Shown here one piece after another: positions 8,301 to 48,561 of a stretch of DNA of 64,000 bases (positions are counted from its first letter, which is position 1; every line of letters starts with the position of its first letter). Location of the stretch: positions 52,725,877 through 52,789,876 of the forward strand of contig OV121081.1 in assembly GCA_921293015.1 (NCBI GenBank), in the 5' to 3' direction. The notes beneath the pieces were generated by a model that saw only the letters and a list, made by a program, of their open reading frames with translations, had not been told where the DNA came from and did not search any database. The stretch comes from Phorcus lineatus. Its lineage: Eukaryota > Mollusca > Gastropoda > Trochida > Trochidae. A program made the translations under genes and the position numbers.

Positions 8301-11300
8301 AACATACAAATGGCTTTTTCAAAAATGCACTTTTTATGATAAAAGATGTAAATTATGTTTGTATAGTTTTTAGATTCTATTTCAGAGAAGGGTGTCATCT
8401 TAAAAACTAAATTCGTTTGCAGAGGTGGCACGACTGTCATCTGACATGGGACCCCAACGATTTCGACAATGTCAGCAATATAATTGTTCCTTTTTCTCAA
8501 GTTTGGACACCTGACATCACTCTTTATGACAAGTGAGTATGAAAGCCATATTGAAAACATTTACTCCAAATTTTATCTTCATATTTTCACAAAACGAAAG
8601 TCTCTGTACATCACGGATTTTAGCACGTTGGCAATCAACGAACGTGTCATGTTACAAATCATTATCATACTATATAATGATACACCTTTGTGTTACGATA
8701 GGTGAAATTTGCTCTTTTCATCTGTATCTGTATCATTATCATCTCCATGGTGTAAATCCTTTCGAGATTTTCAGAACCTTTTTTGTACGATACTGTCTTT
8801 CACGAAAATGCCCTTTCCCTCTATTACTCCCTATTTATCTGATCATACATATCCCAAACCAACACGTTCGTAACATGACAAACCCTCGTAGCAAGCATGT
8901 GCACACTGCTCTATCATATCATGTGTACATTCTTTGCATCCTCCCTTATGTCTTTTGTCTATCAAACCTTAAAATCTAGGTTTCATATACTTGTATTTAA
9001 ATTTCTATCTTTTAATGCGTCACTTCACGCACCGTTTGACCTTGTGTCATATCACATGTCCCATGTTGATTCTGTCATAACAATCATTATTACCACATTT
9101 CATCGTTGTAAACCTTGTATTTTATCATAAATCTGACGTTAGTGTGACATATATGTTTTTGCATTTCCCCGAAACTGTATGTTTCTGTTGTTATGTCACT
9201 GTTTTATGTTTGGTCCAGGTAACACCCCCTATTTATGAGCCTATGTTCATTTATGCATGGTCCTGGTGTCATATCACCGTTCTGTGCATGTTCCCAGTGT
9301 CATATCAGCATTTACTACGTCTCTTTGGTGCCATATCTCCTCTATTAACTCTTTTCCTGGACGGTCTCCCCCAGTGCTGGCGAAGAGCTCGCGGGTCTCA
9401 AAGACTACAGACCATCGATCAGCTCTGACGGGTCTGTCAGCTACAACTTCCCGACCGTCATCAGCTCCCTGTGCAGGGTCGACGTCACCTACTTCCCTTT
9501 TGACACCCAGCGGTGTCCTCTCCCCTTCGGCTCTTGGGCATATCATGGGCTTCAGGCCAACATCACCAGTCTAGCATCAGAAGGCGACATGTCAAGTTTT
9601 AAAACTAACACCGAATGGGAGCTTGTCAGAGTGCCACAAAAAAGAACCGTCACTTACTATGGGTGTTGTCCGGAGCCATATCCTGACGTTACTTTCTACG
9701 TGACTCTGCGCCGAAAGCCGCTGTTTTACCTCCTGAACTTGTTGTTCCCCTGTATACTGATCAGTACTGTAGCTCTGCTGGGGTTCCTGTTGCCACCAGA
9801 CTCAGGGGAGAAGGTTTCACTGGAGATCACGGTCCTCCTCTCACTGGCCGTGTTCCTGCTAGTCGTTTCCGAGACTCTACCTCCATCATCAGAGAACTTT
9901 CCCTTCATTGGTAAGTACATGTACAGCCTTTCAAATCCTTATCACCTCACTCTTTGTACTTGACTTATAATGGATGTCTTAAGACTCAGATAATGTCTGT
10001 GTAGTTTTGACAGCTTACAGTTAAGATAAGTCATCTGATTGCACCGTACCAAGTTAACCGTAGCATGACAAAATTAAGTTATGGATAAACTCAGAAAATG
10101 TGGTCTTGTGAAAAGAACCCCAGCTGTACCAGACATCTTAAACATAAAAGAATTACAAATCGCTTACTACATAACGAGTAACTTATCCCAATGATAATCC
10201 TGATTATTGCCATGTCTCCTCAGGTATATATTTCTGCCTGGCAATGGTCCTGGTAACCTTCTCGACGGTGCTGACGGTCATCGTCCTGAACATCCACTTT
10301 AAGGGGCAGTTGGGCTATCCAGTACCGCGCTGGATCAAGAACCTGTTCTTGGGATCGCTGGCCAGGCTCCTGTGTGTCAGACACGAGGCCCTCGTTCATC
10401 CTGTTAAAGTCATGGCTAATGGACACGCCCACCATTTACAGGGAGACCTGGTCTTAAAAGATACAGGGGTGAGTTAACTTTGAACATAAGTCCCAAATAA
10501 ATTCTATGAAATATTTTAATTAATTAATTAATGCAAGGCTTTTTGAAATGGATATTTCTTTACTCATGTGGATTGGTAAAGTTTAACCTCCTGAATGAGG
10601 ACCTGGTGGCCGTTACACAAAACAACTTAACACTAATGTTAACCTTAGTGCCATCATTTAACATTGCACTAAGGCTACCTTAGTGACTTAAGGCCAATTA
10701 GTGTTTTGTGCAACGGGACGCAGAACTATATCAAAGGCTCTTATTTCAGTCAGGGGGGAAGACAAGTAGGAATATAGGAAAATTCTGAAATGTCATGATA
10801 ATACCTTGCACATGGTTTTATACTTCCAGCTTTATACCTTGGCCTTAATTTTTTAAAGACGTGAAATTTGGACAATAAATAATGTCCCACACTTTGATAT
10901 ACATTTATGATATGCGAAACATATTCAGTTACAGCTGCAGTCAAGAGTTTCATATTTGATTTCTGGGATATTCCTTGTGAATAAGACAAATAATAGTGAT
11001 AAACATCCATTCTCATTGGAATTGGTTTGTTTTTTAATTTTCTGATTTGGGTTTTATATGTTTTATACACTTGAAGAACTAATATAACGAACGTGTTAAT
11101 GTTAAAGTAAGGTTTTTTAAGGTGAATTCGATAATTATGACCTATAAGGTCATACTAATTCAATTTATAAATATATTATTGACCCTACATTTTAATATTT
11201 CGTTCCTGTTGTCTGTTTAACGTCACCTTTGCTGTATTGTGTATGAGTAATGTTTATCATTATTTACAGAGTAAATATGAGGTTTCCGTCAAACAGGTAA

Positions 11301-20800: not shown

Positions 20801-23800
20801 CTGCCTGACATGACTGGGTCAATAATTGATAGATGAAATCAACAAGCACGTAATGTCATTTGTACACACGGACCCACGCGTTTCATACTCACACTGGGCA
20901 AACATTAATTTATAAGAACAAATAGATCACTGAACTATTTGTTTGATTTCGTTTAAGGCAGGCTATTAGATTACAATTTCGACAAATTTCTTGCATATAT
21001 TTACGCGTAGATTTGGTAACATGTTTTGCATGACGTTTTGAATAATCTCCGTTAAAATTCCATGTTCCTAACAGGACTTTCAAGGGCGAGGTCGTAACTA
21101 GACAAATCATTATTATAGCGGGATTACTCTTACTCAAAAAATTATCGTAAACGACTCAAAGCAACATCAAGGTTAATATCGCAATTCAGATATCTATGAA
21201 AAGTGCTGTTAAAAAAGTAAGTTAGTTGTTTGGTAAACCATCGTTGTTTCCATTATAAGTTTTAGGATGTTACAAGGGCATAGCGACAAAGTGTACAAAC
21301 TTAAGTCTTATTAAAGTGATCGGTGCGTGATTCTAACCACCTCAATTGAACACACAGAATACATTGATCAACTGTTTACTAAAGCTTTATATTTTATTAT
21401 AGTCGGACAGTACATATGTACAAAGCACAAAGTTTAACATTAATTTTGTCAGTACAGACTTTGAAATTTGAAACATGAATGATGCATTACGGGGAATTTG
21501 TGACGAAATCAATGTACATAACTTAATATATATCTTGGTACCATTCATTATGTAATTCACAGATGTGTGATCTTAAAAGTAATTTCTTCCTTAACAGTTT
21601 TGGAGGATGTGATTTCAGGAGCTTCTGTATCGAGAGAATTGTCAACAATGTCAGTCGTAAACACTAGAAAGTTCACAGTCTATTATTGAAGCACTATTAA
21701 ACAAGGGTTCGTTGCCACTTACAGACATTTATAGGAATATATATGTATCTCCTCTCCCCAGTTGCCCAGTGCCATGGTGACCAGGCTGATCTCCTGAACA
21801 CTCTCTTCTCCAACTACCGGACTGAGGTGCGTCCACTGTGTGGTCAAGACTCCCCTGTCCAGATCAAGATCGGCATGGCGGCGAGGCAGATAATTGATAT
21901 CGTAAGAATCGTCATTATCATTTATTTCCAATGTGGATTTAATCTGAAATGGCTTAAGATAAATCGTTCTAATGAGAGATACGTATAGTCATTGGAACCT
22001 ATCCCCAAAAAATTCAAACACGAAGCGTACGTAAAATAACCATTATATGATCGAATATTATGAACATGTAACAATGATCCATCTATAGATTTTGTGTTTA
22101 TTTTTCAGGATGAACCTAAACAGATAGTCACACTTAATGTCTGGTTTCGCTTGGTAAGAAATTTCACCTACATTTCTATCAAATCAAAACATATGTTGTA
22201 AAGCATAAAGTATACTCCGATACTTCAATCATCAAAACATATTCATATACCTATGCTTTTTATGTTCATATTTGGAAGAGTTACGTAAAATTCAATAAAG
22301 ATAGATATGAACTTGTGTTTCTATTATTCGACTGCTGAATTTGGAATCCCACTCTCTGCAAAAGTTAAAGTTCTTGAAGTTGGTTAATTAGCTCTTTTTA
22401 CGGCCAGTGCTATCGGAACTTGTTGCTCGACATAGAGCGTCTTTATTAGGTCAGAATGGGTACCAAAAAATAGTGTTACTTAAATGATATAACCATTTAC
22501 TATCTAAATCTATCTATACGTCTATTCTAGAAATGGAATGACTGCAATCTGAGATGGAACGCCAGTGACTACGGGGGTATAGACAACCTTATCCTGCCCT
22601 ATCACAGTATATGGATGCCGGATATGGCGCTTTACGACAAGTAAGTATCTTGAGCCATCCAATCCACGCATCTTCATGCAGATTCACCGTTCAACAACGT
22701 CATAAACCAAACACGTTAGTTGTTTGTTACGTGCCGATCGAAAATCATTTGTTGTACAACGTTCTTTCTTTACATTTCATCTTTATTCAAGTCTAAATTG
22801 ACTAAATTATCATATAATTAAAATTTACATACATGCAGTAGTGCAAAAGCCGAAATCGCACGTACCAATTACATGAATAACAGTCATTGTCCGGTTTTCG
22901 ATCAGAATCGCGACTTTGTATCTTTATATTGTCACTCTGCTAAACTGTGGCATTTAAAGAATACTTTCCAACAGTCAGTACATATCTATAATGTCTAATA
23001 ATGTCATCAATAGTAATGTCACCTCCAAAGTCTCAATTTCGTATTTCGTCAAACTCTCAGTCCCAACTCTCAGCGCACTGCGACTGAACTTGATAGTGCC
23101 ACCTGAGTTGTCTTTGAAATGCTATTTATCGCCTGTAGATGCACTGTACTAAGGTCACGAAAGCAGTAAGAAACTTGCAGTGATATAAACTGGCGTGGGT
23201 TATGCGATGAATGAAGAAAGAGAACATGACCATACGGTTAGAATAAATCACCCTCTTTGTTTAACCTATTGCAGTGCTCTTGAGAGTATCCCTGGAATCC
23301 AAGACTACCGTCCACATGTCTTCTCAGACGGAACAGTCTCCTATAACTTCCCCACCGTCATCAGCAGCATGTGCGTCTTTGACGTCAGAGCCTTTCCATT
23401 CGACACCCAGCAGTGTGCGCTCCCCCTGGGATCATGGGCGTACCACGGGTACCAAGTGAACGTCACCACCATGGACGACAGTGCCGACCTCTCCACATTT
23501 ATGACTAACGGCGAGTGGGACTTAATCCGCGTACCTGCCGTCAGAAACGAGCGCAAGTACAGCTGCTGTGAGGAACCCTACCCTGACGTTACCTTCTACA
23601 TGACGTTACGTCGCAAGCCTTTGTTCTACGTTCTGAATCTGCTCTTTCCCTGTATAGTCATCAGCCAGATGGCGCTTGTAGGCTTCCTACTTCCGGTCGA
23701 CTCTGGCGAGAAGACAGGTCTGGAGATCACTGTGCTGCTGTCTCTTGCGGTCTTCATGATGATCATCTCTCAGTCTCTGCCGCCAACCTCCGAGAACTTC

Positions 23801-25418
23801 CCGCTCATTGGTATGTCACATCAGAGTCTCTCGTATCACAGATTTTCATTGAGAACCTCAACCTTTCTCATAACACGTGTATAAGTAGAAGACTTTTCAA
23901 AATAATATACAAAATAGGTCTGTCAATGGTGGATTCATCTGTGATACTTACCTTAGGTATAAAATATGTTCTCTATTTATCTATTAGTAATCCAGAATTA
24001 ACTATTTTTAAAAATTGCCATGAGTTTTATTTTGCTTATTTGCACAAATGTGATTGACGCAATCAGCAAGACAGAATTTGATATATACAAAAAAGTAGAG
24101 TTTGTTTGATATATAGTTTTCTTTTATTTTCAAGGTATCTATTTTTGCCTGGCAATTGGAATGGTGACCCTGTCGACCATATTGAACGTTTTGGTTTTAA
24201 ATGTTCACTTTCGAGGTCAGCTTGGTCACAGAATGCCCCGGTGGTTGAGACGAGTATTCTTAGGATGTGTGGCGAGGGCGGTATGTGTCTACCCATCAGA
24301 ACCTGATACTCCAGTAATCTGGCTGGGTCAGGATGGAGAGAAATCAGATTTAATGGTAAGGGTGTCTGTGTTCATTCGCTTTCACATACAAAAAAAAAAG
24401 AAGTCATAAGAGTTCGACTGATGAAGATTGATTAACCATATCTGCGAACCTTTTTTAATTTATGTGAAAATTAAAAGATTTTCATTTGTGAACTTATGTT
24501 TGCGTTAACTGGTACTTTTATCATGATAATAGACCCTATATTGGAACGACATTAAAGTACAGCGATTGAATAGAACTAAAACAGTCATAAACTGTTATCA
24601 AACTCCAGGAAGGCAACAAATGGATCAGCTTTTCGCCTTGTGATGAATTTGGTACTTAAAGAATCTGGCCTATCGGCATCCAGTCCGCCATCCTTTTTGG
24701 AAATGACATTAAAAGAAGACGCTGTACTTTGATGCATTTTACAACATTGTGAAAATAAACTATATGTACGAAAAGAATATCCACACATTTATAAACGATT
24801 TATGATAAGACTTGCAATCCCGTATGAAAGCTTTTCACTTTCGAAGCGACGAGTAATGGCTTCACAACTCCTTCTTGTTTTATTTTACCGATTGTGCGCT
24901 CTCAGTTATCTACTGGTCAGATATAACTCAACCAAAAGGTTCCCCATAGTAACATGTTTCAACTGGATTATGTATTGATCATATACTAATAACATACATG
25001 TATAAACTGAAATGTCCCCTTGAATTTCGTTCTACAAACGTTCTCGGTAGTACTTTCCATTTAGATAAATAGACATAAAATTTAAAAAAACGTCATTCCT
25101 ACTTACCATTGCCTTTTTCAGAATGGCCTATACAAAACTAACAAGCAATCCACGTACAGCAAAGAGAAGACAACTCCGGAGAAACAAGATCCCCAGTTTG
25201 CTCCTTTGACTGAAGTCCTGAACGAGCAGCTTTCTCTGCTAAAGAAGTGGCAGAGTCAGCGAGAAGAGCAGGAGAAGACAGAGAAGAATGATGGGGAATG
25301 GAAAACTCTAGCAGTTGTGATGGACAGACTCTTCTTTGTGACGCTATTCAGCTTTTCTCTCATGGTCACCATTGCCATCCTGCTGAAGATCCTGCAGGAG
25401 ACAAGCATGCACTCCTAA
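17834..25418 (+). CDS. Nicotinic acetylcholine receptor alpha-type subunit, gene 2 of 3 (7 exons, 461 aa)
   Basis: Cys-loop cation-channel subunit. Exons: 17834-17870, 21762-21901, 22109-22153, 22531-22640, 23275-23810, 24135-24355, 25122-25418; 1386 nt, in frame, GT-AG throughout. A short hydrophobic leader (MWIGLFLFMVGY) is spliced in phase 1 to VAQCHGDQ. Loop A is IWMPD; the Cys-loop is C144-C158 (FPFDTQQC); the loop B Trp is about 165 in GSWAYHG; the loop C pair C208-C209 sits in YSCCEEPYPD. M1-M3 follow in exons 5-6 and M4 (VMDRLFFVTLFSFSL) ends the protein. Pore differences: Gly at M2 2', Glu at 4', and Gln at 20' (SQSLPP) where the other two genes and vertebrate alpha7 have Glu. An N-glycosylation site NVT follows loop B. 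Exons 2-5 have exactly the lengths of those in gene 1. It lacks the 27-nt microexon and has a shorter M3-M4 loop. Confidence 0.93.
18822..19925. repeat. Diverged tandem duplication in intron 1 of receptor gene 2
   Basis: Two successive related blocks, about 18822-19300 and 19301-19925. Shared landmarks in the same order are GTGCACA with an A-run, GAATTTACC, AAACTCTGAACTGAGAA, AGCGGCTGCC, TTTCCGATATCG, CATTAAATACT, GAATACGTA, and a block reading TGGTG(T/C)GC. At the junction is a perfect palindrome TAGTGCCTTTAAAGGCACTA (19291-19310). Divergence is high, so the duplication is old. No coding sequence. Confidence 0.6.
22855..23010 (+). mobile_element. Fragment of a TTAA-flanked MITE (same family as 34357 and 58710) in intron 4 of receptor gene 2
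   Basis: The internal block GTCCGGTTTTCGATCAGAAT and the following CATATTGTCACT-like and AACAGTC / AATGTCATC segments match the middle and right part of the element at 58710-59142 in the same orientation. The termini are not recognisable, so this is an old partial copy. Confidence 0.5.
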
Positions 25419-26749: not shown

Positions 26750-27090
26750 TTATATAAAGTAATCTCCCAAAAACGAAATAGACGTTTCAAATTGAAAGAA
26801 AATGTACTCGAAGCACTTTTACAACGAACGTATACACTATGATTGCTTTAGCTACGCGAATCCATTTCGCTCTCTCAAACCATTAAAAGGTGTTCACCCA
26901 AAAATGGCCGCAAGTGGTTTTTTGCTTGATTATTTCCTCAATGAAAACTGTGGTCGTGTTAAGTAATGAGATGTTTTGGACCTCTAAAGATTATTCATTT
27001 GGCAAACATTAATGTTTAATAAGACAAATTTAGAAAAACGAATCTTTGTCACTTCTGTAGCTGAACATTAACGTTTCAACACTGCTACTT
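26750..27090 (-). mobile_element. Copy of dispersed miniature element family 1
   Basis: On the minus strand it shares GTGAACACCTTTTAAT, the preceding GGCCATTTTT-type block, the following AAATGGATTCGCGTAGCT and the upstream AAAACATCTCATTAC with copies at 31150, 48181 and 58092. Ends are degraded and only approximate. Non-coding. Confidence 0.6.
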
Positions 27091-28368: not shown

Positions 28369-31300
28369 ATGTCACTACAACTATTCATTTTCATCATCAT
28401 TGGTAAGTCATTACAATATTCCTTTAAACAACTTCGATTTCTTCAATAAACGTTTCCTTTTTATGAGCGTTAAATGTGTATTCTTTAACTTTCTTACAAA
28501 GAAACTCAAATCTTGTTAAAATGCGTATTTAAAAACGTTTTGACTTCATTTCAATTATACTTAAAAATATGTCTTTACTGTGAATATAAGAAACTCATAT
28601 CGAGACAACCAGACCCAGACCCATATTTTTAAGGCTGAGAATTGACCGAAAACTAATGACGCATTATGGTATTCCTTAGTCGTATGTTTGAAATAGGTTG
28701 AGGAAACCTGCAGTACTTTTACTACGTATTACATGTAGGGATAAAATATTATCAATGCCTTCAAGTTGTCATGCCGTAACAATGCTTTCCATGTTCGTAT
28801 GAATGCCGATGGATGTCTTTAATTATAGATGTTTACGTTTTGAGAGATTGCGAGTTATTCAGTAAGGTTGCCTCGAATTTCGTTTACACAAATTATAACC
28901 TGAGTTGACTCTCTCTTTAAAAGTGAATTTTTTACAGAATGAATGGACAATGGCAGGCTTCTACTGTTTCAGTTTCGGGTTGCCAGGGTAACCAGACTGC
29001 CCTCCTGAGCGCTTTATTTGGAAGTTATAGCAGTGACGTCATACCAACATGTGGATCCAACGCCCCAATTCAAGTTCAAGTTGGCATCGCAGTCAGACAG
29101 ATTATTGATATAGTAATTATCTTTTACACTAAAAATGTTATTGTCATGACGCAACTCGTTTCGTAAACATCTTATGACACATTCACCAGGGAAATAAGTT
29201 ATATACACGAAATTTCAACAAGTTTACCAAGAAATGATCAAATCCATTATTCGTCTACTTCAAGCTATTAGGTAGAGACAGTCCTAACATATTGACAAGT
29301 TGAAATTGACATTGCATTCAGATATGAAAAAAATTATAGAAATAAATCATAATAACTTTTCATTTATTTAAAACTTGAACCATCGTACCACAGCAGTATA
29401 TGAATTAAGTCAAATCAAATTTGTTCATATTGTATGGGCATGACAACCACTGAGCTTAAAGTGTTAGATATATACTTACAATACATATCCCATCAGTAGA
29501 CAAAACATAACATTTTCTTTGATAGTAATAAACTATTTATCAACAGGATGAACCAAAACAGGCGATGCTGTCAAATGTTTGGATGCGTTTGGTAAGTACC
29601 TTCAGTTTGGCTATCCATCAACAGAAATTATTAATTTTAGAGCCCAAATTTCATCATCAAAAATATTTTCAATTGTAAATTCTTTCTCCACTTAATTATG
29701 TGTTTGAATAAAATTTAAATGGCAAACATTTAAGCTAATGTTAATCCGATACATCATGTGCATCGACATCACCTATTCCTAGGGAACAAGGGAACAAACT
29801 TTTCTATATGAAGGTTCGTAAAGGACATCCTACAAAATCTGACGAATACTTCATCTAATTGTTGAAATGAATATCACAAAGCTCATTTAAAAGGATGTAT
29901 TCATCGTTTAGATCTTTTGTTCGTACAGAAATGGTACGACTGCAACTTCGTATGGACGCCGAGTGACTACAATGGTATAGACGGGCTTGTCGTGCCTTTC
30001 AGTAAAGTATGGACCCCTGACGTCACGCTCTTTGATAAGTAAGCGTAATAAACGTATCTTTCGTTGTAATTTCATCGACGTTAATTTTTACGCCGAAAGA
30101 TTGCGATATTGATCTTAAATCATGATTTTGGACATAAAAAGGAATTAACTAAAATTATATGGAAAACGTTTAATAACATCAAATGTTATAAATAAAAATC
30201 CATTTATGCATTAGATGCAGGATTTTAACCTCACAACAGTATTTTTGATAACATAAACAATGTATCTTTAACCGGATATTATTAAACAGTCTCTATTATA
30301 AAATTACTATACTAATTCTAAATTGATGTCTGGAAGAATGCTAAGAGTCCATCATAATTGCAGTGCCGATGATGGTCTACCTGGTATGAAGGACTACCGT
30401 CCAAGCATAAGTTCTGATGGAAGTGTCTCATACAATTTCCCCACCGTTATCAACAGCATGTGTGCTATAGACGTCACTGCCTTCCCCTTCGACACACAAC
30501 GTTGTCCCCTGACGTTCGGCTCGTGGGCGTACCATGGACTACAGCTGAATATAACCTCTCTGATTGCAACAGGTGACTGCCTCTATCTCACTCAAACATT
30601 CGGGGCATCTTTTAAAACTCAAAATTAATTTGAACTTAGCTCTCTTTCTAATTTGAAGTTGAAATTGAGAATTGATCAAAGATAAATAACGTACGTATGG
30701 ATGAACATAGCTACGCGGATGGACTTTATTCAGAAAATAATGTTTGATTACTGGACTAAACTTTTTGGTAAATTTAAAAGGTGTTAGCAGCAAGTTATTG
30801 ATAAACTCTATAAGGCGATTCAGGATCTATGCTTATTTGGAAAACAGAGAAGACTATTATCAAGCCAATTCTTCTCAAAATCGGTATTTATAATGTCCAC
30901 AGGTCACACGACTAGAAGTTGATTAAACTATCAAATGTTAAAAGTTCACGTTACTTTTCTGCGATACCAATCCACGAATTTCGGTACTTTAAATGCATAA
31001 CATTGGGTAAAAACGTTGACTAAATTTAATCAGTGAACGATGGTTAGCGACGACACCACTTAAGTTTGACTGTAGTCTTCATGGGCCAGTGCGATGTTGC
31101 TTTTATTCTTATTCTTCAAATTGTGCATAAGAAACATAATATTATGACACATGCATTATCTTCAGAGTGTCCAAAAAGTACTGCTCAACTAGACCATCTG
31201 AAGTCGTAAAATAAATTATCTAGTATCAAACAAATAACCGTAGGTGGCCATTTTAGTGTGAACAACAATTGATCATTTGCGTCAACGAAATGGATTCGCA

Positions 31301-33424
31301 GTTTAACTTAACGTGGTACGTTTGTTTTTTAACATCTTTTTTTTTCAATTAAAAACATTGTATAAAAGTGTTACATACATTTTTGTTTTTGTTAAAATCA
31401 ATTTACTTACCCAAAAAGTGCTACTTTACGTATCCAAAAAGTGCTACTGCTACTGGCATCTCACGATATCAATCACAGCCTATGAATCACACTATACGAT
31501 ATGCGTACATCAATAGTCTATCGACTATACACAGGTGACATATCCGACTTCAAGAAGAACAGCGAGTGGGACATGGTCGAGGTACCAATTGAGCGACACG
31601 TCGTCTACTATGGGTGCTGCCCAGAGCCCTACCCGGACGTGACCTTCTACGTGACTCTACGCCGGAAGCCGCTGTACTACATCCTGAACACGCTCTTCCC
31701 GTGCCTACTGATCAGCCAGATCGCCCTTCTCGGCTTCCTGTTGCCTACAGAGTCTGGTGAGAAGATCGGTCTAGAGCTCACCGTACTGCTGTCTCTTGCT
31801 GTTCTCATGATGGTTGTGTCCGAGACTCTCCCGCCTACCTCCGAGAACTTCCCTTTACTTGGTAACTAGAACCGACACTCGGTCTTATTATATTCATTCC
31901 TGTTCTGATGGATCAATCTTACAAAAAAATGCCTCTTTATACCGTCATACGAGTTTGATACCGTCGCCAGATCTGTCACTTAACAAAAACAAGTCATAAG
32001 CGGACTAGTCGCATCATAGCTTGCATGAATATACCTACTCTTTGCGCGGGTTTCTCTTCCTACGACCTGACAACCCTCCATATCATCACATTTTCCGATG
32101 CCAGTCAGCCAATTATGACTTAAGCTTCCAAAACAAAATTTCGGTAAGACAAACTATCGTACACTAACCGTTATTCCTTTCTCTTTTGTCGATAACATTC
32201 GAATTGAGTAAAAGAGTGATTCCGATTTAGAAATGCTAAAAATAAGTAAAAGCTATGATGCTTTTGACCAGTTTATAACTGAACTAAATCGACGTCAGGT
32301 AATGCGACGATACTAAGTTCGTGTTGCGAGCTAGTATATACAATATCCTTTTCCTTTTTTGTTGCGAACTGTTGTCGAACGGAGCAATATGTATTATTTT
32401 TCTTACTTGATATCTCTTCTGCCAGGTATCTATTTCGTCATTGCTATGACACTCGTCATGATATCAACTGTGCTCACCGTTGTCGTCATCAACGTTTACT
32501 TCCGGGGACAACTGGGTCACAAAGTACCCAGATTGGTCCGGGTGATCTTTCTCGATCATTTGGCACGTCTTCTACGGGTAACGAACAATCAACAGGTCCA
32601 CCCTGACAAAGCTGGTAGTGGGCTCCTAGGAAAGGTAATGACACCCACGATATTCTTTTTTTCTCAAACTTTTATATTTGGGACATCACGGAGCTGTCTA
32701 AATATACCCAAAAAATCTAATTGCACATAGAGAAGTATTTAATGTAAATTTCAACTTATACCATTACAATTCTTGGTTCGGTACATTTCTGAAACCTCAA
32801 CTGATATTTTATAGAAATATTATGGCTATGATGAACTTATATTCACAGTTTGTTAAAACATTGACTGGTAGAGCTGATAATTTCTTTTGTCGCGAGCACA
32901 AGGAGAGAAGTTCATCTTCATATTTCAAATGTGAATCTGTCAAATCGTTAAATGACATCAAATATTCGGACTGACATGGCCGGTACATATAATGATATTC
33001 CCTAAAACATTATAAATGTCAACCTTATATCTTATAAAGTGTAACTTTTCAAATTGAAATTCAGAACATTTAAATTATCACCAGTTTATCAAAAAATTTC
33101 TCATAAATTATAATAATTATTTCACAGTCAGTGTCCCCAATGAGTCCCGGTCTGAGGGTTGACGACCACGTAATTCAAGACATGAAGGTTCAGGATTTGG
33201 ATCAGTCAGCCAAGTCTTCATCCACCGTGAACCTTCTGGAGGAACAGCTCTGGCTCCTGAAGAAGGCGGACCAGCGAGTAATTGAGAGACAGAAGGATGA
33301 GGAGATGGAGAACGAATGGAAGACGCTCTCAGTCGTCTGTGATAGACTCTTTCTTCTTGTTTTCTTTGTGGTGTCCGTGGCGAGTACTATTGGCATTCTA
33401 GTTGAGAGCAATATACAAGCTTAA
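28369..33424 (+). CDS. Nicotinic acetylcholine receptor alpha-type subunit, gene 3 of 3 (8 exons, 456 aa)
   Basis: Cys-loop cation-channel subunit. Exons: 28369-28402, 28973-29112, 29547-29591, 29929-30038, 30364-30572, 31535-31861, 32426-32634, 33128-33424; 1371 nt, in frame. The leader MSLQLFIFIII is short. The acceptor at 28972 was chosen because it gives VSGCQGNQ, matching the paralogues; the earlier AG at 28937 would run into a stop. Loop A is VWTPD, Cys-loop C143-C157 (FPFDTQRC), loop B GSWAYHG, loop C YYGCCPEPYPD with C207-C208. M2 has Gly at 2', Glu at 4' and Glu at 20'. M4 is in the last exon (VVCDRLFLLVFFVVSVAS). Exons 5 and 6 (209 + 327 nt) add up to the 536-nt single exon of genes 1 and 2, so the 962-bp intron between them is extra; ACAGGTGAC occurs at both borders. 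The N-glycosylation site NIT is kept. Confidence 0.93.
31150..31460 (+). mobile_element. Copy of dispersed miniature element family 1 inside the extra intron of receptor gene 3
   Basis: Shares GGCCATTTTAGTGTGAACA, ATCATTTG, GAAATGGATTCGCA and the TACGTTTGTTTT block with the copy at 48181. It fills about a third of the 962-bp intron that only gene 3 has. A 21-bp tandem duplication containing CCAAAAAGTGCTACT (near 31413 and 31434) lies at its right edge. Boundaries are approximate. Confidence 0.55.
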
Positions 33425-33477
33425 ACAGATCAGCGTGCCAATGAAAGCGTATACGAAGGATCTTCCCTGCCCTTCAT

Positions 33478-33912
33478 TCTTCTTGTTTTCTGTTATGTGT
33501 CTTTTGCAATTACTATTGGCATTCTAGTCGAGAACAATGAACAAGCTTATATTCTTATTGGTGTCTTTAGCGAGGACTATTGGTTTTCTAGTGTATATTT
33601 AATGTTGAATTTATCAACAGACTTATCGCTATATTGGCTTTACAATGTCTTGTCGAGATTAATTTCCTCTTTAATTCTCTGCATGTCGCTGACACGTATT
33701 TTGGATATCCTTGTGGGTGTCATGAGAGCATATTGTCGTTGGCATTTTCAAGATGGAGTGAAAATCATGTGCCTGTTGGCTGCGTATCGGTATCTATTTA
33801 GAATTCATTAAAGTTGGGAAGCATGGAAGAAACGAAAAAGGGAAACTATTATACTAATTGCAATTTATTGGGGATCTGTTAGAAACATACTGTTGAGAAC
33901 GAATGGAAGACG
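33478..33912 (+). pseudogene. Decayed extra copies of the receptor gene 3 last exon
   Basis: Just after the stop of gene 3, 33478-33549 repeats the M4-coding end of the last exon (shared blocks TTCTTCTTGTTTTCT, ACTATTGGCATTCTAGT and ACAAGCTTA). 33555-33593 is a third, worse copy (GGTGTCTTTAGCGAGGACTATTGG). At 33892-33912 GAGAACGAATGGAAGACG is identical to the part of the last exon preceding M4. None forms a complete exon. They look like remains of tandem duplications at the 3' end of the array, possibly of a fourth receptor. Confidence 0.65.
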
Positions 33913-34356
33913 TGGGGTTACGGATGTGATCAGCAATTTATTCACATGGCCTTGCAACCACGCAACGGGAGAGTGTAACTATAAATACACTATTTAAAAT
34001 GTATACATGGTCAATGAGTATCGGACGGGATAAACATGAGAGTAAATATAAACAGGAAAGGTCAAAATGGTGCACCCTTATACAATGGTCTTTGATGTAT
34101 TCACAGCTTATGTTTTCTTGTCAAAACCTTCCTTATCGGATGGCAAATCTCTTTTACGTTTTTGGCGTAGTAAGTTTTGTAGTAAAATGTTGTTCACGTT
34201 GCTTAAGTTGTTCTTACTATTGTTCAATTGTCTCTTTGAACACATTTTATGACGAAAATGAGGCCAAATGTCCATGGAAAACGTTTTATCAAAGTTCGAT
34301 TGGTCCAATATGTCAGGCGGATCTATGGTTTTGTTGTTAAGGGGAAACTATCCATG

Positions 34357-36898: not shown

Positions 36899-37871
36899 GT
36901 GGCACATTTGATTGAGGGTCAGGGTAACTTTAGAGGAATATATTTTAGAAAATGGTGTATCATACGATCATGATATGTCATATTAAGAGAAACACAAACT
37001 AGCGACAGCATTTATAATTTTTCTACTTTACTTTGAAGAAATATGGGATAGTGACCAACCATTTTTAACAAAGCACAGCAAGTCGGTTGATCAATGAAAG
37101 TCCTGGAGTCGTTGTAAAATATTTCATTTGATTTAAAGTTCATGTATGATGGCCAAATCCGTATCGAATGTTAAATAGACTAAATAGTTAATACAGTTAG
37201 TATAGTTGTTTTTCTAGCTACATTACATTGATATGCAGATACCACTATTGTATTGTGCCAATGTTATGAATGGTTAACTCGATGGCATTCTTATATGAAA
37301 GACTGATCCTAGGAATTGACACTTGGGTTTAAGTTATTTGCATATGAACCCCATTTGTAAAAGAAGGATTACTCTTTACGTTTGCATTGCAATTTTTTTT
37401 TCAAAAGTGCTTATTTTATTAATGCCTTGTGTTATAACTGTTTATGTGTAAACATTTTATCATTTGAAAATGACTTGTCCCTATCATATTTAGGGGAGGT
37501 AAGTCACTTCGTCACTTCACACATATTTGAATATGCAAATAGGGGTCAACCAATATCGTGGAGGGGGCCTAGCTGCTGTCCAGAAATCAAAACAATAGCA
37601 AAAAAATTCGAGGAAAACGGTTAACTGTCTTCTGATGCTTTGTTTTTTTATCAAGAAAGAGTAAAAGAATTAGGTTTCTATGATTTTGAGTTTTTCATCC
37701 GAACTACCTAATTTAAATGCAAAGCAAATTATTTCCCAATTGTGGTTGATTAACTTAGTGAAGAAAAATAACGCCCATTCATCCAATTAGTTGAACATTC
37801 AGAGTATGCCATTATCAGATTATTGATCACTGATACAGAAGCATACAAGCTATAGAAATTAGGGATGTGCC

Positions 37872-38653
37872 CACAGGCCCTCGGATCATTAAAAAAAAAT
37901 AAAAAAAATTCATAAATTTTTTTTTGAGAACACCCCCTGAATAAAATTGTTCCTCTGTTAATAGTATACAGAAAGGCCAGACACTCCGTTCGACCCCATC
38001 CGCTTTCTTGACCGAATGCTACAATAAATACACACGCAATCAATATAAAAACTATGCAGACATGTTCTCAAATGATTTGCCTTTCTAATCCAACTCACTT
38101 AAACAAATATATCTTTGGGGTTATTTAATGAGGACGGCCGAAAGACGATTTCCACGCCCAACTTAATGCTGATGGGACAAATGGCGCCCGTCACCTTGAC
38201 CTTACGGGGTGTGTGGCCGCAGCGACAGATCTCATTGGTTTGATGCAAAGTTAGGAACAGATAACTCTAATTCTCCGTTCTTGCAACCAATGAGGTCTGT
38301 CGCTGCGGCCACACACCCCGTAAGGTCAAGGTGACGGGCGCCATTTGTCCCATCAGCATTAAGTTGGGCGTGGAAATCGTCTTTCGGCCGTCCTCATTAA
38401 ATAACCCCAAAGATATATTTGTTTAAGTGAATTGGATTAGAAAGGCAAATCATTTGAGAACATGTCTGCATAGTTTTTATATTGATTGCGTGTGTATTTA
38501 TTGTAGCATTCGGTCAAGAAAGCGGATGGGGTCGAACGGAGTGTCTGGCCTTTCTATATACTATTAACAGAGGAACAATTTTATTCAGGGGGTGTTCTCA
38601 AAAAAAATTTTATGAATTTTTTTTTTTTTTTTTTAATGATCCGAGGGCCTGTG
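37872..38653. mobile_element. Foldback palindromic element with ~370-bp arms
   Basis: Left arm about 37872-38240 and right arm about 38285-38653 are near-perfect reverse complements around a ~44-bp unpaired centre. The outer termini read CACAGGCCCTCGG... and ...CCGAGGGCCTGTG. The 8-mer GATGTGCC, 9-mer GGATGTGCC if one base is shared with the element, occurs directly outside both ends (37863-37871 and 38653-38661), a target-site duplication of hAT-like size. The arms differ chiefly in an A/T run. The element ends about 200 bp before the C1orf43-like start codon, so it sits in the presumptive promoter or 5' untranslated region. No protein function: the twin ORFs in the arms are mirror images. 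Confidence 0.85.
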
Positions 38654-38850
38654 GATGTGCCTCCTGTAATTCAGTGCCAGGAAACGTAAGAATGGAATAT
38701 GTCTCTATGTACTCATTGAATTGTTTCTTAATGTTTGATTTCAATCAACCTTTCATCTTTGCAGTTCGTTGTAAAGAATAAAGTAAAAAGCGAAAAGCAA
38801 GTCTACCATAATGTACAACATACATCTGCTACATGACTTGATATCTGGAC

Positions 38851-48180: not shown

Positions 48181-48561
48181 CTTAAAGGAGCAGTAGCATG
48201 GTTTTTTTAAAGATTTAGTTCTTCAAATTTTCCCTAATAAGCATATTGCTAAATTTATCTTCATTTTCATGTATCTTCAAAGAGTCAAAACATCTCATGA
48301 CTCATTCTGATCATCTGTAGTCATAGCAGAAACAATCAAGTGTTAAACTAAAACCACTGGCGGACATTTTAGTGTGAACACCTTTTAATCATTTGTGATA
48401 GGAAAATGGATTCACATAGCTCAATCAATTATGATATGTTTGTTTTCTTCTTTTCATTCTTTTCTTTGTATGCTTCTTTTGTGTACACTTGTGTATCTTT
48501 CTTTATGTACACTTTTTTTTTCGTGAAATCATCTTTAAAGACATGCTACAGCCCCTTTTAG
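48181..48561 (+). mobile_element. MITE family 1, best-preserved copy
   Basis: 381 bp with terminal inverted repeats: left CTTAAAGGAGCAGTAGCATG and, on the right, CATGCTACAGCCCCTTTTAG. The left end shows TTAA and the right TTTA, suggesting an eroded TTAA target duplication. The interior GGACATTTTAGTGTGAACA...TTTTAATCATTTG recurs at 26750 (minus), 31150 and 58092. Non-coding. Confidence 0.75.

Follow-up and report, generated by a model that had tools for sequence, protein, structure and literature searches.

An apparent intron gain in one of three tandem nicotinic-type receptor genes of the gastropod Phorcus lineatus, with a nine-base repeat at both intron borders

We describe an intron that appears to have been gained in a nicotinic-type Cys-loop receptor gene of Phorcus lineatus. 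The window, a 64-kb stretch of DNA (64,000 nucleotides of contig OV121081.1, positions 52,725,877 to 52,789,876 of the forward strand, numbered here from its first letter), carries three tandem genes of this type, called genes 1, 2 and 3. An exon of 536 nt that is whole in genes 1 and 2 is split in gene 3 by a 962-bp intron with the same nine bases, ACAGGTGAC, at both of its borders. Comparison of the paralogues gives good support to a single gain in the line leading to gene 3, by far the simplest history.

The fuller history that we favor, and consider probable as a whole, is one of insertion with a self-made pair of splice sites. In the gene 3 lineage, after or about its separation from genes 1 and 2, DNA would have been inserted into a Gly-Asp codon pair in the ligand-binding domain. 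The insertion would have copied a few target bases (up to nine), a known outcome of staggered-break repair and of cut-and-paste transposition. The copied bases would have contained AG|GT, with the left copy becoming the splice donor and the right copy the splice acceptor, and the insert would then have been removed exactly, leaving the length of the protein unchanged. A miniature transposable element would have landed later within the intron and lengthened it.

A split exon and its paralogues

The uninterrupted exon, which begins midway through the ligand-binding domain and extends to the second transmembrane helix (TM2), lies at 9375–9910 in gene 1 and at 23275–23810 in gene 2, and introns flank it on both sides in both genes. 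All of these features, and those of gene 3, are on the forward strand, and the proteins of genes 1 and 2 are 76% and 66% identical, respectively, to that of gene 3. In gene 3 the exon pieces occupy 30364–30572 (209 nt, ending in ...GCAACAG) and 31535–31861 (327 nt, followed by a GTAACT donor). The intron between them (30573–31534; GTGACT...TACACAG) has GT-AG ends and cuts the codon of Gly70 of the exon pair after its first base, in phase 1. The pieces sum to 536 nt, equal to the unsplit exon, and join into one open frame of 178 residues. The exon structure described in an earlier note on this DNA is thereby confirmed. Translation continued past the donor would run for 18 codons, the split glycine codon included, before reaching a stop. 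The intron length of 962 bases is also not divisible by three, and an unspliced intron would shift the frame. Given this early stop and the shift, the intron needs to be removed for the receptor to be produced, and the frame and borders suggest that it is spliced.

Gain was weighed against loss by comparing the paralogues of one genome. A six-frame search of the 958-Mb P. lineatus genome with the joined gene 3 protein as query gave 179 candidates, of which 150 were scored. Codons 55–90 of the exon pair are spanned by 144 of these rows. Thirteen of the spanning rows hold a stop, which leaves 131 clean read-throughs; one of them is the first exon of the paralogue L039, which crosses codon 70 and meets its own intron further on. 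Of the six non-spanning rows, two are the halves of gene 3 itself and the other four belong to L039, L040 and L041. Among the stop-holding rows is L030, the true structure of which is split ten codons upstream of the gene 3 site. A position common to gene 3 and other split paralogues was rejected for the four that were examined, all of which are split elsewhere. Besides L030, these are L041, split in codon 73 in phase 2 (10 nt from the gene 3 site when counted back from GEW without gaps), the alpha-7-like L039, split in the glycine of GEWELIG before MPV, and L040, split somewhere after GEW. The stretch around the insertion site differs in length among the paralogues.

Phylogenetic trees were considered for 45 rows, leaving out the short matches L057 and L058, L040, L041 and the second gene 3 locus, and for 34 rows, with 11 long-branch or distant rows dropped from the 45. 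Support is given as bootstrap/Shimodaira-Hasegawa-like approximate likelihood ratio test (SH-aLRT). Gene 3 clusters with genes 1 and 2 in both (100/92 with 45 rows, 98/92 with 34 rows), and the three genes belong to a 13-row clade (100/98) whose other rows are all free of a split at the gene 3 site. The approximately unbiased (AU) test rejected a basal position of gene 3 in the family (p-AU 1.28e-6, 34 rows). Within the three genes, a grouping of genes 1 and 2 with each other gave p-AU 0.123, and either of them may be the nearer to gene 3. The read-throughs and the tree uphold the gain that the earlier note proposed, with genes 1 and 2 and other paralogues of the species' own genome lacking an intron at the gene 3 site.

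The tree also bears on the intron of L030. This intron of 209 bases lies at FQ|V in phase 0 between codons 60 and 61 (L030 positions 1391–1599; contig C25 near 23522044–23522264), and both of its borders read CAG|GT, with five shared bases. L015, the sister of L030 (99/92 with 45 rows, 99/96 with 34 rows), is without it. Membership of a repeat family was rejected for this intron, as a genome search returned only itself. The same receptor exon was thus probably invaded at least twice in one genome, independently in gene 3 and L030.

The nine-base border repeat

The first copy of the repeat lies at 30569–30577 (exon ACAG followed by intron GTGAC) and the second at 31531–31539 (intron ACAG followed by exon GTGAC), both on the forward strand. 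As the earlier note had claimed, the nine bases occur at both borders; they are found nowhere else in the window. This count is weak evidence by itself because at least two copies occurred in 5 of 100 shuffles; the informative point is their placement at both junctions. The shared run of gene 3 (4 + 5 nt) was compared with those in all combinations of 33 donors and 37 acceptors from the receptor family. For this set, 8 of 42 acceptors (L013, L014, L017, L028, L048, L052, L055 and L056) and 1 of 29 donors (L049) were dropped as doubtful, and five donors and three acceptors read by eye were added. None of the resulting 1,221 pairings, which include near-copies and come mostly from two gene positions, reached eight shared bases, and two had seven. 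The modelled chance of at least nine shared bases is 5e-5 with family frequencies and 5e-4 with metazoan frequencies, and rises to 0.5–1.5% when an AG|GT exon context is given.

The best surviving alternative is a gain in which DNA that brought its own GT...AG ends was inserted in the exon without duplicating its target, the nine-base match being the product of splice consensus and chance. AG and GT, four of the nine bases, match by necessity in a GT-AG intron with an AG|GT exon. The splice consensus also favors C at −3, G at +3 and A at +4 on the intron side, which takes in three more. The conditional chance of 0.5–1.5% is compatible with such a coincidence, and the gain in L030 shares only the five bases of CAG|GT. 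On the other side, no pairing exceeded seven, and A at −4 and C at +5 remain beyond the obligatory and consensus-favored bases. C at donor +5 is unusual and unfavorable in the donor consensus, yet in gene 3 it equals the exon base at +5, as expected if the target had been copied. We regard an insertion without target duplication as a distinct but minor possibility. In our judgement, which is not a calculation, the repeat favors duplication over chance by perhaps tenfold or more.

Several observations weigh against the history we favor, beginning with the obligatory and consensus-favored matches just described. The conditional chance of 0.5–1.5% is not negligible, as many introns were scanned in the reading that produced the earlier note. 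The letters at the gene 3 site are GAAGGCGAC in gene 1 and AGTGCCGAC in gene 2; AGGT is in neither, and ACAGGTGAC was not found at the site in any other listed paralogue. For the intron to be as old as it seems (see below), an exact nine-base repeat needs constraint or luck. The gene 3 donor is of ordinary strength: scored by base frequencies, 24 of 33 other donors are weaker, which places it 25th of 34 from the weakest, and a weak donor as the mark of a young intron was rejected on this account. Terminal inverted repeats were not found at the intron ends, where 30 and 60 bases did no better than shuffles and 28% of shuffles were as good for 150 bases, though decay may have removed them. As for the gain itself, the evidence comes from paralogues within the genomic sequence of one species, and of the 13 stop-holding rows the examination for hidden introns covered L030.

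Target-site duplication at insertion therefore stands as favored, not proven, since seven of the nine bases are consensus-favored on the intron side and the event is probably old. The duplicated proto-splice site of the earlier note survives in part: AG|GT is present in both gene 3 copies, but because AGGT is absent from the corresponding site of genes 1 and 2, an ancestral proto-splice site would be known from gene 3 alone.

Source and age of the inserted DNA

The intron contains a degenerate, apparently full-length copy of a dispersed miniature inverted-repeat element at 31077–31465 (ends approximate). In an alignment of copies, the consensus of this element starts with CTTAAAGGGGCAGTAGCATG and ends with the near-complementary CNTGCTACTGCCC. 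The copy in gene 3 is 26.7% from the consensus (Kimura two-parameter distance 0.33), and nine other aligned copies are 20–29% from it. Searching the genome with the whole intron plus flanking sequence turned up 1,003 candidate places; in the 40 that were scored, all 39 non-self matches fall on query positions 574–928. The earlier note had allowed the element to be either the source of the intron or a later arrival. The first was rejected, as ~504 and ~69 bp of other intron sequence separate the element from the donor and the acceptor, respectively. Being placed inside the intron, it did not supply the splice sites and probably arrived later, most likely as a passenger.

The miniature element is abundant, with 7,219 candidate places in one genome search (40 scored), and also occurs in the window at 48272–48416 and 26856–26930. 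L005 and L061–L090 represent a block with the element in which copies are up to 94–95% identical, found on contig C25 (~38.1–45.9 Mb) and also on C39 and C41; the block is probably a recently amplified repeat. Because L005 falls in such a block, recurring along a single contig, copies found from it were set aside when independent copies of the element were sought.

The intron parts upstream (30578–31076) and downstream (31466–31530) of the element, on the forward strand, match only themselves in the genome, in a search that skips very common words and has limited sensitivity. A comparable search picked up element copies of ~70% identity and would therefore be expected to reveal any abundant family of like age, and the full-length introner-like copies that the earlier note suggested looking for were not found for these parts. 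A small RNA as the source was rejected, there being no Rfam match at an expect value (E) of 0.1 or less over 28500–34000.

Single-copy inserted DNA flanked by a short direct repeat fits both staggered-break repair with filler DNA and a decayed single transposon, and the nine-base repeat would be the same footprint for either, with the same conditional chance of coincidence. More tentatively, and with a probability well below even, the intron may be what is left of a decayed non-autonomous transposon, or of an introner-like element, whose eight- or nine-base target duplication gave both splice sites, in which case the expanded receptor family of this lineage would have others, L030 being a candidate.

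The earlier note had also suggested a tandem duplication that created its own splice sites. An AGGT-containing stretch of exon would have been duplicated and the intervening sequence removed by splicing, a model put forward for some introns of Drosophila, and AG|GT repeated at both borders is the footprint it would be expected to leave (PMC2891723, PMC3443670). As in gene 3, the Drosophila introns have AG|GY at both borders and extra similarity past this core (PMC2891723). Sense-strand similarity of the intron was not detected to the gene 3 exon, where 45% of 200 shuffles scored as well, nor to gene 1 (22% of shuffles) or the region of the preceding exon (63%), and blastn of the intron against the window gave only itself, the miniature element matches and short matches at E 0.6. 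One antisense score was matched by only 3% of shuffles, a result that the model does not predict. Exon-derived sequence went undetected in the Drosophila introns too, where the authors cite age (PMC2891723), and age could have erased it here. We consider a tandem duplication improbable.

The intron is at least as old as the element copy if the element landed after the intron had formed, and it is probably old, at ~0.3 substitutions per site. Dating by synonymous changes was rejected, as these are saturated by the Nei-Gojobori method (NG86; 1.56 between genes 2 and 3, 2.15 between genes 1 and 3).

An ancestral intron, lost exactly from genes 1 and 2 and from the other paralogues, is very unlikely. 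Introns are known to be lost by way of reverse transcription. Retroposition has also shaped the nicotinic acetylcholine receptor (nAChR) genes of molluscs (PMC6896357). Many independent exact losses would be needed, yet genes 1 and 2 retain introns on both sides of the exon; moreover, the basal place of gene 3 was rejected and the intron of the alpha-7-like L039 lies elsewhere. It is equally hard to credit that there is no intron here, only faulty assembly or a decaying gene broken by an insertion: frame and length are exact, the borders are GT-AG, G+C is 32–35% across all three parts of the intron and the protein is conserved on both sides.

The receptor genes and other gained introns

Gene 3 belongs to the nicotinic-type Cys-loop receptors by both of its channel domains (Pfam Neur_chan_LBD, PF02931, 2e-28; Neur_chan_memb, PF02932, 7.7e-15). 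The best solved structural relative of its product is nAChR alpha-7 (1.9e-52), and the CAIDVTAFPFDTQRC loop and the CC pair are readable in the protein. Upstream of the split exon lies a 110-nt exon (29929–30038; WTPDVTLFDK) followed by a GTAAGC donor. The exon of the third transmembrane helix (TM3) is at 32426–32580, its start being an inferred acceptor and its end at least at 32580. The last exon, with the fourth helix (TM4) and the stop, is at 33221–33424, where 33424 is the end and 33221 is not a mapped exon start. The gene looks intact in the exons examined. Nonsynonymous change (dN) against genes 1 and 2 is 0.21 and 0.24, respectively, and synonymous change (dS) 2.15 and 1.56 (NG86, dS saturated), a sign of constraint on the protein. 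Downstream of gene 3 (33425–33942), TM4-exon-like fragments at 33546–33590 (E 0.20) and 33892–33942 (E 0.023) are possibly the relic of a partial duplication. Elsewhere in the window, 37871–38240 and 38285–38654 form a 370-nt inverted repeat whose arms are 99% complementary, are separated by 44 nt and carry nearly identical open frames; its appearance is that of a fold-back element or an inverted duplication of recent origin.

Molluscs have many intronless or intron-poor nAChR genes, and the introns of one-intron genes have been read as probably newly gained (PMC6896357). Gene 3 resembles these cases in that the family is the same and a paralogue has an intron at a position absent from its relatives. 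The genes of that study are intronless retrogenes with one or two gained introns, whereas gene 3 is a multi-exon gene that retains its other introns, and border duplication is not mentioned in the covered parts of that account (PMC6896357). In Daphnia pulex, neointrons have been attributed to staggered double-strand breaks, with 33 direct repeats of 4–12 bp; those introns are recent and occur in populations, in contrast to the probable ~0.3 substitutions per site of the gene 3 intron (PMC4202315).

Introners can draw their splice sites from target duplications of 3–9 bp, often without changing the length of the mRNA, and terminal inverted repeats are not present in every introner family (PMC9860276). 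They form multi-copy families, whereas only the internal miniature element of the gene 3 intron is repeated, and it stops short of the splice sites. The same authors caution that matches of AG alone cannot demonstrate duplication (PMC9860276). The supply of both splice sites by a duplicated AGGT has been described for tandem duplication in Drosophila (PMC2891723) and reviewed for both transposon insertion and tandem duplication, with an earlier survey cited as finding short repeats at 43% of gained introns (PMC3443670).

Gene 3 did not turn up in literature searches, which were aimed at intron-gain mechanisms and at molluscan nAChRs in general. Its intron is a clean new example of an already reported phenomenon, the gained introns of molluscan nAChRs. 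The origin of new introns is still debated, and a polarized gain with a kept frame and a possible footprint at its borders is a useful case. The gene 3 intron would allow a direct test of the duplication model through the empty site in related species.

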